Source: a virus
Length of the DNA stretch: 31,240 bases
IMG/VR virus record: IMGVR_UViG_3300022934_000099
Span: 1-31,240 of that record
Direction: 5' to 3' (one strand)
In this document: in pieces, positions 5,296-13,333 of the stretch
Numbering within the stretch: position 1 is the first letter of the stretch
Layout: the number at the start of each line of letters is the position of its first letter
The notes under the pieces: model-generated
Seen by the model: the letters and a program-made list of their open reading frames with translations, nothing else
The model's database searches: none
Told to the model about the DNA's origin: nothing
Program-made: the position numbers and the translations under genes

Positions 5296-5484
5296 ATGTT
5301 TGATATAATTTGGATACTTTTCGCTGCGGCTTCTTTCTGTTCCTTTATGATCGGTAGATCATGGAGTAATAGATTTCCGCCCGAATTCATCATTGAGAAT
5401 ACTATAGAGTATTTAATCGCCGAAGGCTATATACATGCCGAACGAACCGAAGATGGCGAATGGGAAATAAGTAAAGTAGATTAA
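5296..5484 (+). CDS. Small membrane-anchored protein, 62 aa
   Basis: The ATG at 5296 is chosen over an upstream in-frame ATG (5245) inside the previous gene. Residues 3-20 form a transmembrane helix (DIIWILFAAASFCSFMIG). The cytoplasmic part, IENTIEYLIAEGYI..., ends in an acidic tail. Short proteins with this layout recur in marine T4-like phages (recalled). The stop TAATGA overlaps the halogenase start. Confidence 0.65.
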   Translation: MFDIIWILFAAASFCSFMIGRSWSNRFPPEFIIENTIEYLIAEGYIHAERTEDGEWEISKVD

Positions 5485-6650
5485 TGAAAAAACTTGCAAT
5501 TGTCGGTAAAGGCACCATTGGCTGCCTTGCCATTAATTATTTTTTACAACGTACTGATTGGCATATTGATTGGATATTTGATAGTAGTATTCCTACTACA
5601 TCAGTTGGCGAAGGAACTACATTAGCAGTTGCAAAACTTTTACAAACATTTGATTGGACCAATAATGCTATGTCGGAATTTAATGCGGTTCCTAAATTAG
5701 GCATTTATAAAAAAAATTGGACTGAGGAAACGTTTTCACACTCTTTTCCTTTTGGTGAATTTGGTATCCACATGTCCGCAGTTGATCTCCAAAATAAGAT
5801 ATATGATTTTGTAAAAACCTCACCACGCATTAATATTATTAACATGTATGTAGAGAATCCAAATGATCTTGACGCTGATCATGTAATGATTTGTTCTGGC
5901 TCTCCTAAAGATTATAGTGATTATACACCACTTGATCATGTATCGGTTGACAGTTGTTTTGTGACACAGTGTTATTGGGATCGCCCAGAATTTATGGAAA
6001 CATTAACTATAGCCCGGCCCTATGGTTGGGTGTTTGGCATCCCCATACAGAATAGATGTTCTATTGGTTATCTTTATAATTCTAATTATACTTCTCTGTC
6101 AAATATAAAGAAGGATGTACAAAGTGTATTTGAAGATTTTGGTTTGACACCAAGTGATACTACAAATCATATACAATTTAAAAGTTATTATAAAAATAAT
6201 AATTTTTCAAATAAAGTTGTATATAACGGCAATGCATCATTTTTTGTAGAACCATTAGAAGCAACAACGTCAGCTTCAGCCATTAAGATAATGAATACAG
6301 CATTAAATTTATGGCACGGTGTGTTTCCATCCGAGTTTGCACAGAACCTATATGAAAATGAAATTAATGCCGTTGAGTCAATCATATGCATGCATTATAT
6401 GTCAGGCTCTACATTTAAAAACGATTTCTGGAATGACGCAAAAAAACGTTCCACACAAAAATTACAAAAAGATTTTAAAGAAGGATCTGAGTTTAGTAAC
6501 ATAGTCAAATTGGTTACCAAAGAAAATATAGATCATATGGAGATGATGAACATTGAACTTGGTACATGGGAAGCCCAAAGTTATAAATTTAACATTGAAA
6601 GACTTGGTATCAAAGACACTTTAATTGAAATGGCTAAAAATAATTCGTGA
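5484..6650 (+). CDS. Flavin-dependent tryptophan halogenase-like protein, 388 aa
   Basis: The N-terminal FAD-binding GxGxxG appears as VGKGTIGCLA (7-16), followed by SVGEGTT (40-46). K71 in PKLGIYKKNW aligns with the catalytic lysine of RebH/PrnA (K79). The family signature WxWxIP is present as W182-V-F184-G-I-P187, so its second Trp is Phe. E259 in FVEPLEATT aligns with the conserved Glu near the active site (RebH E357). The protein is shorter than bacterial enzymes (about 510-540 aa), mostly at the C-terminal substrate-binding part, so the substrate is probably not free tryptophan. Known family chemistry is FADH2- and O2-dependent halide oxidation. Similar genes are annotated in marine cyanophages. 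It overlaps the upstream stop. Confidence 0.88.
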   Translation: MKKLAIVGKGTIGCLAINYFLQRTDWHIDWIFDSSIPTTSVGEGTTLAVAKLLQTFDWTNNAMSEFNAVPKLGIYKKNWTEETFSHSFPFGEFGIHMSAVDLQNKIYDFVKTSPRINIINMYVENPNDLDADHVMICSGSPKDYSDYTPLDHVSVDSCFVTQCYWDRPEFMETLTIARPYGWVFGIPIQNRCSIGYLYNSNYTSLSNIKKDVQSVFEDFGLTPSDTTNHIQFKSYYKNNNFSNKVVYNGNASFFVEPLEATTSASAIKIMNTALNLWHGVFPSEFAQNLYENEINAVESIICMHYMSGSTFKNDFWNDAKKRSTQKLQKDFKEGSEFSNIVKLVTKENIDHMEMMNIELGTWEAQSYKFNIERLGIKDTLIEMAKNNS

Positions 6651-8802: not shown

Positions 8803-10626
8803 TTAATTATTAACTGTAAGATCGTTTGTTACGGTCGTAACGTTTTGAGGTGGAAGTGGGGGTATATCACTGCCTCCACCTGATGCAGAACCATTTACAG
8901 TATTGGTATCTCCACCATTAAAGATATAGGTATCACCGGATTGAGTAATTGTTCCACCTTCTATGAGTCTTGAAACAATATCATTTACGGCTCCGCGTTC
9001 TGCATAGGCTTGAGTACCTATTCTGGTTTTTCCACTACCACTACCTCTAAAGAATCTACTGCGAATACCGAAGAGGCCGCGGCCTGCCATTTTTTCTAGT
9101 CTTCTGGCACTTAGATTTTCAATAGGTAAGAATCCATCATTTGGATCTTCATTTGCCACAACATTATAATCCATTATTTGTTTATAGCTATCCCATGTAG
9201 TATAATCATCAGGATCAAATCCAGGAGCCTTTTCTGGGAATCTAAAGAAATGTTTTTCTTGAGCCCATGTCTTTAATTCTTCTGTGGACATTTTCATTAG
9301 TAATTCACAATAGACACCCCATTCGCCTTGAGGCATACCTTGGCCACCAGTGGTTTTTATCCAATCCTTCATACCTTTTTGAATTGCTAATAATACTGCT
9401 ATAGCACCTTTACCTCTATCAGCAGCAACTTTTTCCATATCAAAAGCAGCTTGAATCATAGGTGCATCAATAGAACCATCAGCTAAAGAGCTTGGAGCTA
9501 TCATCATTTGTAGTGCGGCACCAGGCACTGACCCTGCAATTTTAAATGCAGCTGATATTGTCTTGCCAGGTATTGATACCCCACTCACAAGAGTTCTACC
9601 AATCATATTGTTGAGAGGGTTGTATTTTCCCTTTGTGATCGTTTGGGCTTTAGCTAATACATTTGCGGCTGTTTCTGCTGCAGCTTCAACTGGATTAAGA
9701 GCAGCCACAAAAGCTGTTGCCCCTACTCTGTTCCTTATCATCATACCATAATTTTTATATCTATTTCCTCTACCTCTTTCATCATTCATAGCGGTGAATC
9801 TACGGTTTGGATCAATAGACTTGGTAGGATCTGCTACTAGTGGCTTAGCGGTAGTTGTATCTATTTTAACCGCGGATTTAGATGTGTCGGGAGAGGCTAA
9901 CGCCTGTGCTTCTTTTCTAACAACCATTGCATCGGCACCACCTGTAAGTCTAGTAACTTTACCATTCTTTACACTGTAATTTTTTCCAGTAGCATCCCTA
10001 AAGGTATTTGTACCAACATTTTTTTGGAGATCTAATTTTTTCCCCTGATAATCAACTGTTACTTTTGGAATTGGTTTTGGTAAAGTTGGTGTTACTTTTG
10101 TAACCGGCGATGGTGGTTTAAGTGTAGGTGTAACCTTTGATACCTTAGGTGTTGTGTAAGGAACCTTGGTATTTTTTTTAATCTCTGAATTCTGAGATTG
10201 AATATCATTTAATCTTTGATTAATTTTGGCAATACTTAAGGTAATGTTTTGATCTAATGGATTCAATACAGTTTCTACAGCTTCTTTGACCTCTGTCTTT
10301 TGTCTTGAATCCAATTTATCTACAAAAGCTTTTATTGCTGCAGCACCTGCTGCTAGGCCCAAAGCACCTTGAGCCAAAGCACCCATTGAGGGTCTGCTGG
10401 TTTCACCCGAAGATTTGTCTACTCTAGAACTTGCCTTCTGCGCCTGAAGTTTTTTATTCTGAGCCTCTAGTTGATCAAACTTATTTCTGTCTTGACTTTT
10501 TAAAAAGGCCGTAAAGTTTTTATTGAGTCCCTCAACACCATCACCGACACGATTAATGCCCTCAAGAGTATCGGCATTAAGTTTCTTTTGCTCTTCGAGC
10601 TTCTGGGCTAGGTTTGTTAAACTCAT
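8803..10626 (-). CDS. 29: Tape measure / gp29-type tail length protein, 607 aa
   Basis: The length is close to T4 gp29 (590 aa). The N-terminus (about 1-70) is a charged coiled coil, followed by a Gly/Ala hydrophobic helix (GALAQGALGLAAGAAAIKAF, about 82-101). A Pro/Thr/Lys linker repeats KVTPTL, then come more Ala-rich hydrophobic helices. The C-terminus is Gly/Ser-rich and ends NVTTVTNDLTVNN. Such proteins run inside the tail tube from the hub and set its length. Its ATG follows the gp51-like stop with no gap, and the gp26-gp51-tape measure order supports the call. Sequence identity to gp29 is not obvious by eye. Confidence 0.75.
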   Translation of the reverse strand: MSLTNLAQKLEEQKKLNADTLEGINRVGDGVEGLNKNFTAFLKSQDRNKFDQLEAQNKKLQAQKASSRVDKSSGETSRPSMGALAQGALGLAAGAAAIKAFVDKLDSRQKTEVKEAVETVLNPLDQNITLSIAKINQRLNDIQSQNSEIKKNTKVPYTTPKVSKVTPTLKPPSPVTKVTPTLPKPIPKVTVDYQGKKLDLQKNVGTNTFRDATGKNYSVKNGKVTRLTGGADAMVVRKEAQALASPDTSKSAVKIDTTTAKPLVADPTKSIDPNRRFTAMNDERGRGNRYKNYGMMIRNRVGATAFVAALNPVEAAAETAANVLAKAQTITKGKYNPLNNMIGRTLVSGVSIPGKTISAAFKIAGSVPGAALQMMIAPSSLADGSIDAPMIQAAFDMEKVAADRGKGAIAVLLAIQKGMKDWIKTTGGQGMPQGEWGVYCELLMKMSTEELKTWAQEKHFFRFPEKAPGFDPDDYTTWDSYKQIMDYNVVANEDPNDGFLPIENLSARRLEKMAGRGLFGIRSRFFRGSGSGKTRIGTQAYAERGAVNDIVSRLIEGGTITQSGDTYIFNGGDTNTVNGSASGGGSDIPPLPPQNVTTVTNDLTVNN

Positions 10627-10815
10627 TTAAATACCCTGCGCAACCTTTCTTTCTTCGGCTATTCTTTTCATTTGCTCGATCAATAGATTTACATAAATTT
10701 CTCTCTCCCATGGCATCATCGATTCTATGTCGCTGAGTGAATAGTTATGGTTCTCCATTAATTGAAAATTCACTTGATAAAAATTCACTAGTGTGTCATG
10801 TGAGAGAGCTATTAA
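10627..10815 (-). CDS. 51: gp51-like tail assembly chaperone extension, reached by -1 frameshift from gp26
   Basis: This frame has no stop from the T run at the end of gp26 to the TAA at 10629-10627. It encodes about 62 residues: LIALSHDTLVNFYQVNF, then NYSLSDIESMMPWEREIYVN and LLIEQMKRIAEERK. The 'YSL.DIE.MMPWERE.YV.LL' block is typical of short gp51 proteins of marine T4-like phages. No ATG precedes the conserved part; the first ATG would remove 24 residues, and two GTGs (10773-10771 and 10758-10756) have no clear RBS. A T_TTT_TTT slippery site at the gp26 stop would join it to gp26 as a protein of about 298 aa. T4 gp51 is needed for hub assembly. Confidence 0.7.
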   Translation of the reverse strand, partial: LIALSHDTLVNFYQVNFQLMENHNYSLSDIESMMPWEREIYVNLLIEQMKRIAEERKVAQGI

Positions 10816-11522
10816 AAAAAATCCTGTAATCCCTGTAATGTATATTTATTCTCTTTTTTACATTTTTCACAAGTAAATTCTGCATCATGTTTCAATGATG
10901 GTAGATTGTTTACATATTCCAAAATCTTTTGATAGTGATCAGTAGAAAGACTATCCATAAATTGTTTAATTTCTTCTTCCGGTTCATCTTTAAATAAGAA
11001 TGTATCATCTTCTGTATGAAGTGTTTGTAGGCACATCAAAGATAAGTTATAAAGAATCTCAGTATAGCTTTCACCTTCTAGGATCTTTTCTTTTTGAATT
11101 GCATCCTTATATTTTGGAAATCCCATTACCAATTCAATATCATCATTTAATTTGATTTTTGGATTTGGAAATTCTTTTGATTCAATCTTAATAGTAGATA
11201 CATCAATATCAACTGAGTTGGGATGCTCACATTCACATCTCAGCAAGATAGTACTTGTCTCACCAACTGACTTTGATCTAATCTGTAAGAACATATATTC
11301 AACGTCAAATGTCGATAGATTATTAATGTCTATATCTTCTTCGATACATTGTTTTACTATATCAAGAATAGCCTGAGCTGCCATTAGACTATCATCAGAT
11401 TCAAATGCCATAAGCAATACTTTTTCTTCACCTACATTGTAGGGTCTAAAATGAATCTTTTGTTGGAGAGAAGGTAATACTGTATTAAATTTAGGATAAT
11501 TGTTTAGTTTGGGTAGAGCCAT
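10812..11522 (-). CDS. 26: gp26-like baseplate hub / tail assembly protein, 236 aa
   Basis: KIHFRPYNVGEEKVLLMAFES (22-42, quoted in part: RPYNVGEEK) and FDVEYMFLQIRSKSVGE (72-88) match the T4_baseplate (gp26) family, as does the C-terminus LQGLQDFF. C96/C98/H100 and C218/C221 could form a small zinc site. T4 gp26 takes part in assembly of the baseplate hub. By position (two genes before the tape measure, with a -1 frame extension) it corresponds to the gpG-type tail assembly chaperone. The RBS is GAGG, 9 bases before the ATG. It ends on a run of eight T. Confidence 0.85.
   Translation of the reverse strand: MALPKLNNYPKFNTVLPSLQQKIHFRPYNVGEEKVLLMAFESDDSLMAAQAILDIVKQCIEEDIDINNLSTFDVEYMFLQIRSKSVGETSTILLRCECEHPNSVDIDVSTIKIESKEFPNPKIKLNDDIELVMGFPKYKDAIQKEKILEGESYTEILYNLSLMCLQTLHTEDDTFLFKDEPEEEIKQFMDSLSTDHYQKILEYVNNLPSLKHDAEFTCEKCKKENKYTLQGLQDFF
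10814..10821 (-). other. Candidate -1 programmed frameshift site at the gp26 stop
   Basis: On the - strand, eight T follow GGA: the gp26 frame reads GAT TTT TTT TAA. The heptamer T_TTT_TTT allows both tRNA-Phe to slip one base back, after which reading goes on as TTA ATA GCT into the gp51-like frame. The zero-frame stop directly after the heptamer is a known stimulator of slippage. No strong downstream hairpin is obvious by eye. Confidence 0.6.
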
Positions 11523-11538: not shown

Positions 11539-12249
11539 TTAAAAAATATTATTTACAAACCCTATAATGTTAGATCTAATTGTACTAGTCAAAGCATCTT
11601 TAAGATTTGATGGAGATACGATAAATGGAGCTTTCCAGTCAGTAAAACTTAATTGAATATTTAATTCAACTATACCATCCATCTCATTGTTTAATTGTAT
11701 TGCATTCATAGTTGTTGGGAATGCATCAATAAGTTTACATTTATAGATCACAAGATCGTTTAGTTGATCATTAAGACCCAAAATAGTTTCGCCAAGTTCA
11801 AAGTCAGAAATTTTAGGAAGAACATTTCCTATACCACTTGAGAATTCCTGTCTATATCTTTGAGGTAGGCTCTTGACTTTTTTAAACTGTTCTATTTCAA
11901 CATCTCTAGAATAGTCTTTTTTGTAACCTACTTCATATGTATTTGTGTTTGTTGCAAGGTTTTGCCATGTTTCAAAATATTCCCTTACACCATAATCATT
12001 AAGAACATGGAATGTCATAGACACATCTTGAATTAAAAATCCATTGGCAACACGCTCTTGTATTAAACCATAATTAAAAGTATTGGTAGTAATCTGCCTA
12101 CCAGGTAATTGAACATCCCTACAAAGTATATTCATTTCCTCAGATCTAGCCCCAGGAAGGCTTGGAAGCTTTACGCGCCATAGGTTATTACGGGCAAGGC
12201 CACCTTTAGCACTTACTAAACTTTTAAACTGATCAACTGTACCAGCCAT
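11539..12249 (-). CDS. 54: gp54-like tail tube initiator, 236 aa
   Basis: The protein has the pattern of the tail-tube-like fold: NNLWRVKLPSLPG (21-33), LCRDVQLPGRQI (42-53), a central 'MTFHVLNDYGVREYFETW', and 'LIDAFPTTMNAIQL...IVELNIQLSFTDW' near the C-terminus. T4 gp54 sits on gp48 on top of the hub and starts tail tube polymerisation. It is shorter than T4 gp54 (320 aa) but similar to marine homologues. A paralogous gp19 tail tube protein has the same fold, but the context (between gp4 and gp26, with gp48 divergent) favours gp54. The start overlaps the upstream stop (TAATG). Confidence 0.75.
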   Translation of the reverse strand: MAGTVDQFKSLVSAKGGLARNNLWRVKLPSLPGARSEEMNILCRDVQLPGRQITTNTFNYGLIQERVANGFLIQDVSMTFHVLNDYGVREYFETWQNLATNTNTYEVGYKKDYSRDVEIEQFKKVKSLPQRYRQEFSSGIGNVLPKISDFELGETILGLNDQLNDLVIYKCKLIDAFPTTMNAIQLNNEMDGIVELNIQLSFTDWKAPFIVSPSNLKDALTSTIRSNIIGFVNNIF

Positions 12250-12841: not shown

Positions 12842-13333
12842 TTATCTACGTTTTTTCACTTTTAGGGGTTTTAAAGGTTTAAGAGTTCTTTTTGGTTTGG
12901 GCAGAATACCCATTGAAGATAATTCTTTCTCTGTCCAAACCTGAAATCCCCAACCTCTATCAGCTGCATAGTTTTGAGCTGCAGCCCATTTATTCATATT
13001 CTTTATGTATGTCATTCCTTCAGAGATATACTTTTTTGTCTTGCGACCCTTGAACTCTGGTGGGGATGTTTCTTTCTCTGGTTTGATCTCAACTAAAAAA
13101 GTCTTGCCATCACTGTAGGTAATTTTGAGATCCATGAAGTAACGATGATACTTTTTGTCGACTTCATAGAAGTAGGGTATAACAACCTCTTCTGATGACC
13201 AAGAACGTATTGACGAATTTTCATCACACCACTTAAAAGCATTTCTCTCCCATAAAGATCTAAATATTACATTATCTGGATCACCTTTATACTTGGTTCT
13301 GTTCTTTACCTTATATCTTCCAGAATATGCCAT
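12842..13333 (-). CDS. 4: gp4 (gp50) head completion protein, 163 aa
   Basis: The protein follows T4 gp4 closely: MAYSGRYKVKN, KYKGDPDNVIFRSLWERNAF (14-33), SWSSEEVVIPY (44-54), RYFMDLKITYSDGKTFLVEI (64-83), KPEKETSPP and KWAAAQNYAADRGWGFQVWT. The fold is nuclease-like (D68 and E82-x-K84 fit a PD-(D/E)XK pattern). In T4 it is needed to finish filled heads before tail joining. The basic C-terminus (KPKRTLKPLKPLKVKKRR) is longer than in T4 (150 aa). It is the first gene of the leftward operon, behind a late-type promoter. Confidence 0.93.
   Translation of the reverse strand: MAYSGRYKVKNRTKYKGDPDNVIFRSLWERNAFKWCDENSSIRSWSSEEVVIPYFYEVDKKYHRYFMDLKITYSDGKTFLVEIKPEKETSPPEFKGRKTKKYISEGMTYIKNMNKWAAAQNYAADRGWGFQVWTEKELSSMGILPKPKRTLKPLKPLKVKKRR

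Follow-up and report, generated by a model that had tools for sequence, protein, structure and literature searches.

A predicted programmed -1 frameshift joining gp26 and gp51 in an uncultivated T4-like virus

The gp26-gp51 locus and its neighbours

The DNA analyzed here, referred to as the window, is a 31,240-nucleotide IMG/VR record of an uncultivated T4-like virus. On its minus strand, a tail tube gene (positions 11539-12249; PHROG 45 tail tube, E 7.8e-32) lies directly upstream of a gene for a 236-residue gp26 homologue (10812-11522). We assign this homologue as the short tail assembly chaperone (TAC-N) from its matches to PF12322 (E 3.8e-50) and PHROG 150 (E 4.2e-55). The gene ends CAG GAT TTT TTT TAA, and its run of eight T residues (10821-10814) holds the slippery heptamer T_TTT_TTT (10821-10815) directly 5' of the stop codon TAA (10814-10812). 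The -1 frame continues for 62 codons (10815-10630) to its own TAA (10629-10627), which adjoins the ATG of the following ORF at 10626. As in gene pairs of the G/G-T type, the slippery sequence is found within the overlap of gp26 and the -1 frame.

The -1 extension (10627-10815, minus strand, stop included) corresponds to gp51, or TAC-C. Its peptide hits PHROG 634 ("baseplate hub assembly catalyst") at E 1.2e-24. It also aligns with positions 225-281 of the 282 positions of PHROG 150, gp26 corresponding to the other part of that family. Because the -1 peptide matches the last part of PHROG 150, the profile suggests a family that holds joined gp26-gp51 forms. The predicted gp26-51 fusion (TAC-NC) is 298 residues long, with the junction peptide ...LQDFFLIALSHD... 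An earlier note on this DNA had described the gp26 end on eight T residues, the T_TTT_TTT heptamer with its immediate stop and an open -1 frame of about 62 codons carrying the conserved gp51 block, all of which agree with our reading. It was mistaken in stating that no ATG precedes the gp51 core. An in-frame ATG at 10758-10756 (minus strand), 21 codons past the heptamer start, begins the sequence MENHNYSLSDIE and constitutes a rival start. Its SD is poor, with anti-SD pairing of -1.6 kcal/mol versus -5.6 kcal/mol at the gp26 start.

Directly after TAC-C is a 607-residue ORF (8803-10626, minus strand), which is likely the tape measure gene by its place and size. Sequence comparison gave nothing for this ORF better than E 0.16 in Pfam, no match in PHROGs, and no match in a tblastn search of the phage collection. 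BLASTP gave no significant match to T4 gp29 (E 0.058) and none to the C48C1 gene at the corresponding place. The gene order of tail tube, gp26 (TAC-N), gp51 (TAC-C) and long ORF follows the usual order in long-tailed phages, in which the tail tube gene precedes the short and long chaperones and a long ORF. Among the 33 loci with enough sequence, 27 have a long ORF at that place, with a start from 53 nt upstream to 21 nt downstream of the TAC-C stop. These ORFs are 492-826 codons long, some of them truncated where the contig ends. Of all ORFs beginning within 900 nt, the test took the longest, a choice that favours a positive result. The earlier note was right that the -1 frame stops directly before the ATG at 10626, and its naming of that ORF as the tape measure gene is a matter of place and size. 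In Synechococcus phage DSL-LC02, the gene that immediately follows the gp51 part (L211:2896-4059) carries the annotation GH104 glycoside hydrolase and not tape measure. Elsewhere in the window, the head-closure (PHROG 218) protein at 12842-13333 (minus strand) also matches a TnsA-like endonuclease N-terminal family (E 1.4e-19), and a tryptophan halogenase-like gene (PF04820, E 2.6e-29), here in a T4-like phage, lies at 5484-6650 on the plus strand.

The AlphaFold2 model of gp26 has a mean pLDDT of 90. When residues 1-91 were compared with 999 chains, the HK97 tail assembly chaperone 2OB9 ranked second (Z 7.5, 85 aligned residues, rmsd 4.6), behind 3FGX (Z 7.9), and the fourth chain scored Z 4.7; best Z values of 7 to 8 are common for models without a clear match. 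Foldseek placed 2OB9 at rank 16 (E 1.6, probability 0.51), which is not significant alone. The modelled likeness to 2OB9 is support, not proof, for a chaperone fold. The model of a T4-type gp51 gave no telling fold match, with 2OB9 absent from its lists, and sequence searches of the PDB with gp26 and T4 gp51 found no relative.

The slip site and the -1 frame in related phages

Relatives of the locus were taken from IMG/VR (80 of 279, representing 79 distinct loci, and 80 of at least 570) and from annotated phages. Of 194 loci entered, eight were removed for having fewer than 200 nt beyond the stop, and the remaining 186 were reduced to 64 non-redundant loci at below 90% identity. The counts exclude L008, which is cut inside gp26, the T4-type loci L085, L086 and L092, in which gene 25 is present and the -1 frame holds no gp51, and L199-L208, which carry T4-type gp51; L209, L211 and L212 also lie outside the 64-locus counts, and their -1 frames were read separately. 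The loci share descent, and the counts are not independent trials.

The -1 frame remains open for at least 140 nt beyond the gp26 stop in all 64 loci, and the +1 frame in none. Stop-free alternative-frame windows of 60 codons occur inside gp26 at a chance level of 21 in 2,346. A T_TTT_TTN heptamer, starting 7, 10 or 13 nt 5' of the gp26 stop, is present in 59 of the 64 loci (TTTTTTC in 38, TTTTTTT in 18, TTTTTTA in two and TTTTTTG in one), and elsewhere in the same gp26 genes this motif is found in frame at 8 of 14,701 codon positions. The encoded amino acids (mostly DFF, SFF and NFF) and codon usage would together be expected to produce T_TTT in 31.3 of the 59 loci, and therefore the argument needs both the T run and the open frame. 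The earlier note had proposed aligning the locus across T4-like marine phages: the T run and the open -1 frame proved to be conserved, and the expected lack of an ATG did not, as 51 of the 59 heptamer-bearing loci have one ahead of the gp51 core.

The pattern is kept in the Kyanoviridae (C48C1, P-SSM2 and HTVC008M) and in Aeh1, and also in Sinorhizobium phage phiN3, Stenotrophomonas phage YB07, Vibrio phage QD01 and the large Vibrio phage 2.275.O, in which the -1 peptide is barely recognisable as gp51. The five remaining loci of the 64, which are of the Vi01 type, keep the -1 frame without T_TTT_TTN. In Vi01-type loci (L084, L090, L091 and L094-L111), the gp51 part lies in the -1 frame and (A/C)TT TTC is found near the stop. 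This sequence resembles sites of the kind used in T7 gene 10, given as G_GU in a 2016 review (PMC5009743). Four of these loci (L091 and L108-L110) have TAATG at the gp26 stop. In Pelagibacter phage Mosig (L209:4205-4232), the gp26 frame is about nine codons longer than usual and the -1 gp51 part is present.

In T4, genes 51 and 26 are separate and stand head to head on opposite strands, and gene 25 rather than gp51 follows gp26 in three T4-type loci examined (T4, Stupor and UTK0003). T4 gp26 (208 residues) and gp51 (249 residues) are paralogues, matching PF12322 at 8.8e-64 and 3.9e-52. The 48 residues of T4 gp51 that lie past its PF12322 match correspond to the marine -1 part: a profile of the latter hit gp51 residues 205-247 by hmmsearch at 4.5e-9 in a set of nine proteins, and at 6.4e-8 when a 9-kb stretch of T4 was searched in six frames. 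With hhalign, positions 21-285 of the virtual fusion profile aligned to positions 12-247 of the T4 gp51 profile with a probability of 99.3% (E 1e-20), and the -1 part alone aligned to T4 gp51 202-247 (E 2e-8), both being single-comparison E values. The fusion and T4 gp51 align over nearly their whole length and share the position of the junction. T4 gp26, for its part, matches the short form almost to its end. The window therefore has the two features of the T4 gp26/gp51 family, PF12322 in the short form and a C-terminal domain like gp51 residues of about 202-247. T4 gp51 is a gp26-like domain and the gp51 C-terminal domain in a single frame, equivalent to the fusion. T4 thus has one gene for the short form (gp26) and another for the long form (gp51), and because T4 gp51 joins the same parts in one frame, gp26 and gp26-51 of the window are probably short and long chaperones.

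We compared substitutions at -1 codon positions in the 48 nt ahead of the ATG, using window-type loci with no ATG before -1 codon 20 (n = 63). In 26 disjoint pairs, 45, 46 and 127 changes fell at -1 codon positions 1, 2 and 3, respectively. With changes piled up at third positions, this stretch bears the mark of protein-coding sequence in the -1 frame. A mixed set of 62 disjoint pairs, which includes P-SSM2-type loci whose ATG at codon 5 precedes most of the stretch, gave 34, 17 and 139 changes. The position of the first ATG between heptamer and core varies from codon 3 to codon 21, eight of the 59 loci have no ATG there, and six have no ATG, GTG or TTG; the core was not recognised in L082 and L093, for which the first 25 codons were used. 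As in G/G-T type pairs, gp26 is thus followed by an overlapping ORF in the -1 frame, open in 64 of 64 loci, with no dependable start of its own.

These data bear on whether gp51 might instead be a separate small protein that starts at the ATG at 10758-10756 or, in other phages, just past the gp26 stop, perhaps through translational coupling. Public records annotate gp51 in this way, for example in P-SSM2, HTVC008M and phiN3, and most loci do offer an ATG before the core. In 23 loci, mainly of the P-SSM2 type, that ATG is at codon 5, and in the P-SSM2 type it lies 2 nt past the stop codon. Anti-SD pairing reaches -3 kcal/mol or better in 0.74 of these codon-5 ATGs and -5 kcal/mol in none, and because of this weak complementarity there may be a second, coupled start at codon 5, mainly in P-SSM2-type phages. 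However, none of the 48 ATGs at codon 20 or 21 reaches -5 kcal/mol, compared to 0.83 of the 59 slip sites, 0.54 of gp26 starts and 0.08 of random gp26 windows. The variable position of the ATG, and its absence from some loci, also argue against this explanation. Furthermore, such a start would lose the conserved LSHDxLxNxY stretch, which evolves like a protein read in the -1 frame, and the same parts are fused in T4. We consider an independent gp51 start quite improbable and favour a frameshift fusion.

Candidate stimulatory elements around the slip site

An SD-like sequence, CAGGG (10831-10835, minus strand), stands 9 nt upstream of the heptamer in the window and may act as a 5' stimulator. 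The signal is weak in the window, where its anti-SD pairing is -4.9 kcal/mol and does not go beyond synonymous codon choice (p 0.32). Across the 59 loci, mean anti-SD pairing is -6.88 kcal/mol at this place versus -0.86 kcal/mol in the rest of gp26. The peak lies 8-16 nt upstream of the slip site, and the strongest 9-mers start 15-16 nt upstream of the heptamer. None of 100 replicates with synonymous codon choice reached the mean of the 59 loci. By group, the corresponding counts were 0 of 100 for the P-SSM2 type (n = 22), 0 of 100 for the window type (n = 26) and 3 of 100 for the others (n = 11), and among single loci 14 of 59 fall in the strongest tenth of their own null distribution.

RNA folding downstream of the heptamer was evaluated against synonymous replicates that follow the codon usage of the gene concerned. 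There is no 3' stem-loop beyond chance in the window (z -0.01), where fractions of 0.11 and 0.22 of synonymous replicates fold as well. Over the 59 loci the mean folding z is -1.7 to -1.9, which derives chiefly from P-SSM2-type loci. In these cyanophages (L081 and L119-L198), a stem-loop starts 5 nt after the heptamer with a folding energy of -12.2 kcal/mol versus -2.7 to -2.85 kcal/mol under synonymous change. No replicate of 100 reached this value, and 21 of 22 loci fall in the strongest tenth of their own null. Standard pairs fill 92% of the pair cells over 24 distinct rows. Covariation is mixed, because the pair (13, 27) is U-A in 12 rows, A.C in nine, G-C in two and U.C in one. Window-type loci have no near stem within 33 nt (-1.33 versus -1.78 kcal/mol in the null, with 98 of 100 replicates folding equally or better). 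Over 60 nt they are somewhat more folded (-7.23 versus -4.95 kcal/mol, 0 of 100 replicates), and 11 of 26 fall in the strongest tenth.

The bacterial dnaX cassette likewise combines a slippery heptamer with a 5' SD-like element, which we find for the locus set as a whole rather than for the window alone. A 3' stem-loop of the dnaX kind is also found in the P-SSM2-type clade, whereas the window has no clear 3' stem. dnaX is otherwise a different gene with a different slip sequence.

The fusion could also arise if RNA polymerase, instead of the ribosome, slipped on the T run. The window has eight consecutive T residues, and polymerase slippage in bacteria is known on runs of nine A or T, according to the 2016 review (PMC5009743). 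Yet 41 of the 59 relatives have just six T residues and two have seven, and a near-fixed SD-like element, with a 3' stem-loop in one clade, is of the kind that stimulates ribosomes. Polymerase slippage thus seems somewhat less likely still than an independent gp51 start. Homopolymers are error-prone in sequencing, and the earlier note had named an error in the T run as grounds for rejecting the frameshift; that gp26-51 is really one in-frame gene is scarcely credible, because the same T run and stop recur in contigs L001-L007 and L009 and the frame relation is constant in all 64 loci, 38 of which have TTTTTTC. All three alternatives were tested, and comparison disfavours each of them.

Probable short and long forms of a tail assembly chaperone

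The heptamer, the conserved open -1 frame, its protein-like evolution and the equivalence of the fusion to T4 gp51 are all read from sequence. With the heptamer in 59 of 64 loci, the open frame in 64 of 64, the third-position changes and the T4 comparison, they lend strong support to the gp26-gp51 frameshift fusion that the earlier note had put forward. We conclude that the window very probably makes a short and a long tail chaperone by programmed -1 frameshifting on T_TTT_TTT. Most ribosomes would stop at the gp26 TAA to produce the 236-residue short form, TAC-N. A minority would slip back one base on the heptamer before the stop and produce the 298-residue gp26-51 fusion, TAC-NC. If the two forms work as lambda gpG and gpG-T do, the part common to both would coat the tape measure, and the C-terminal addition would recruit tail-tube subunits. 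That slippage takes place in cells is inferred, as are how often it does so, what the chaperones bind and that the next gene encodes the tape measure.

Phage lambda similarly obtains short and long chaperones, gpG and gpG-T, from a -1 frameshift close to where a short ORF ends; the window, with its T run as slip site, is likened to this system by arrangement and not by sequence comparison. gpG and gpG-T bind the tape measure and the tube, as the 2016 review states (PMC5009743). The tail chaperones of T4 itself resemble those of the window in having a short form and a long form with an added C-terminal domain, and differ in being encoded by two separate, divergent genes. The locus of Vandenendeviridae and Andersonviridae exemplified by phage Adele is also similar, with a -1 frame open in all genomes there and a poly-T stretch ending TAC-N, but its motif is GTTTTT, in contrast to T_TTT_TTN in the window's relatives (PMC12846349).

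By all the comparative tests available, the window appears to carry a genuine programmed -1 frameshift site, and the system is of a kind already known. The abstract of the 2022 paper by Vladimirov, Gautam and Davidson reportedly names genes 26 and 51, with frameshifting kept in several T4-like groups. That paper (Virology 566:9-15) reportedly described tail chaperones of this kind in T4-like phages. Thus, the tie to lambda-type chaperones suggested in the earlier note is supported and had already been published; credit for discovering frameshifted chaperones in T4-like phages belongs to the 2022 paper, and the window is a clear new example. According to the PRFect paper (PMC10885494), some T4-like phages have both a short gene and a longer, fused one, and the Adele paper (PMC12846349) cites the 2022 work for poly-T slip signals in the TAC-N genes of T4-like phages. 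The 2016 review still listed T4 as an exception (PMC5009743).

Our analysis adds the SD-like element in most loci and the 3' stem-loop in P-SSM2-type cyanophages. It also provides an independent comparison in which gp26 and gp51 emerge as short and long forms of one family, with signs of frameshifting in the examined Kyanoviridae and several T4-related phages. Our literature search, mainly of titles and the starts of abstracts, with subscription papers thinly covered, found no report of this SD-like element or stem-loop. Because of that thin coverage, both may well have been described already.

More tentatively, T4-related phages might have several interchangeable ways of fixing how much short relative to long chaperone is made, a reading that we think has somewhat less than an even chance of being correct and that comprises four variants. 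P-SSM2-type cyanophages would use a dnaX-like cassette of SD-like element, T_TTT_TTC and a 3' stem-loop 5 nt further on. The window's group would have a slimmer cassette, composed of the heptamer and a weak SD without a near stem. Vi01-type phages would rely on a T7-gene-10-like site or a coupled start, and T4 on gene duplication. This graded set of ratio-setting means, especially the cyanophage stem-loop, may be undescribed.

There is also a gap in annotation. The joined gene is annotated in none of the 14 public records with an open -1 frame that we examined, and three of these records (Aeh1, Vi01 and Vibrio K356) omit the gp51 C-terminal part. The C48C1 record annotates just the last 34 codons of the gp51 part.
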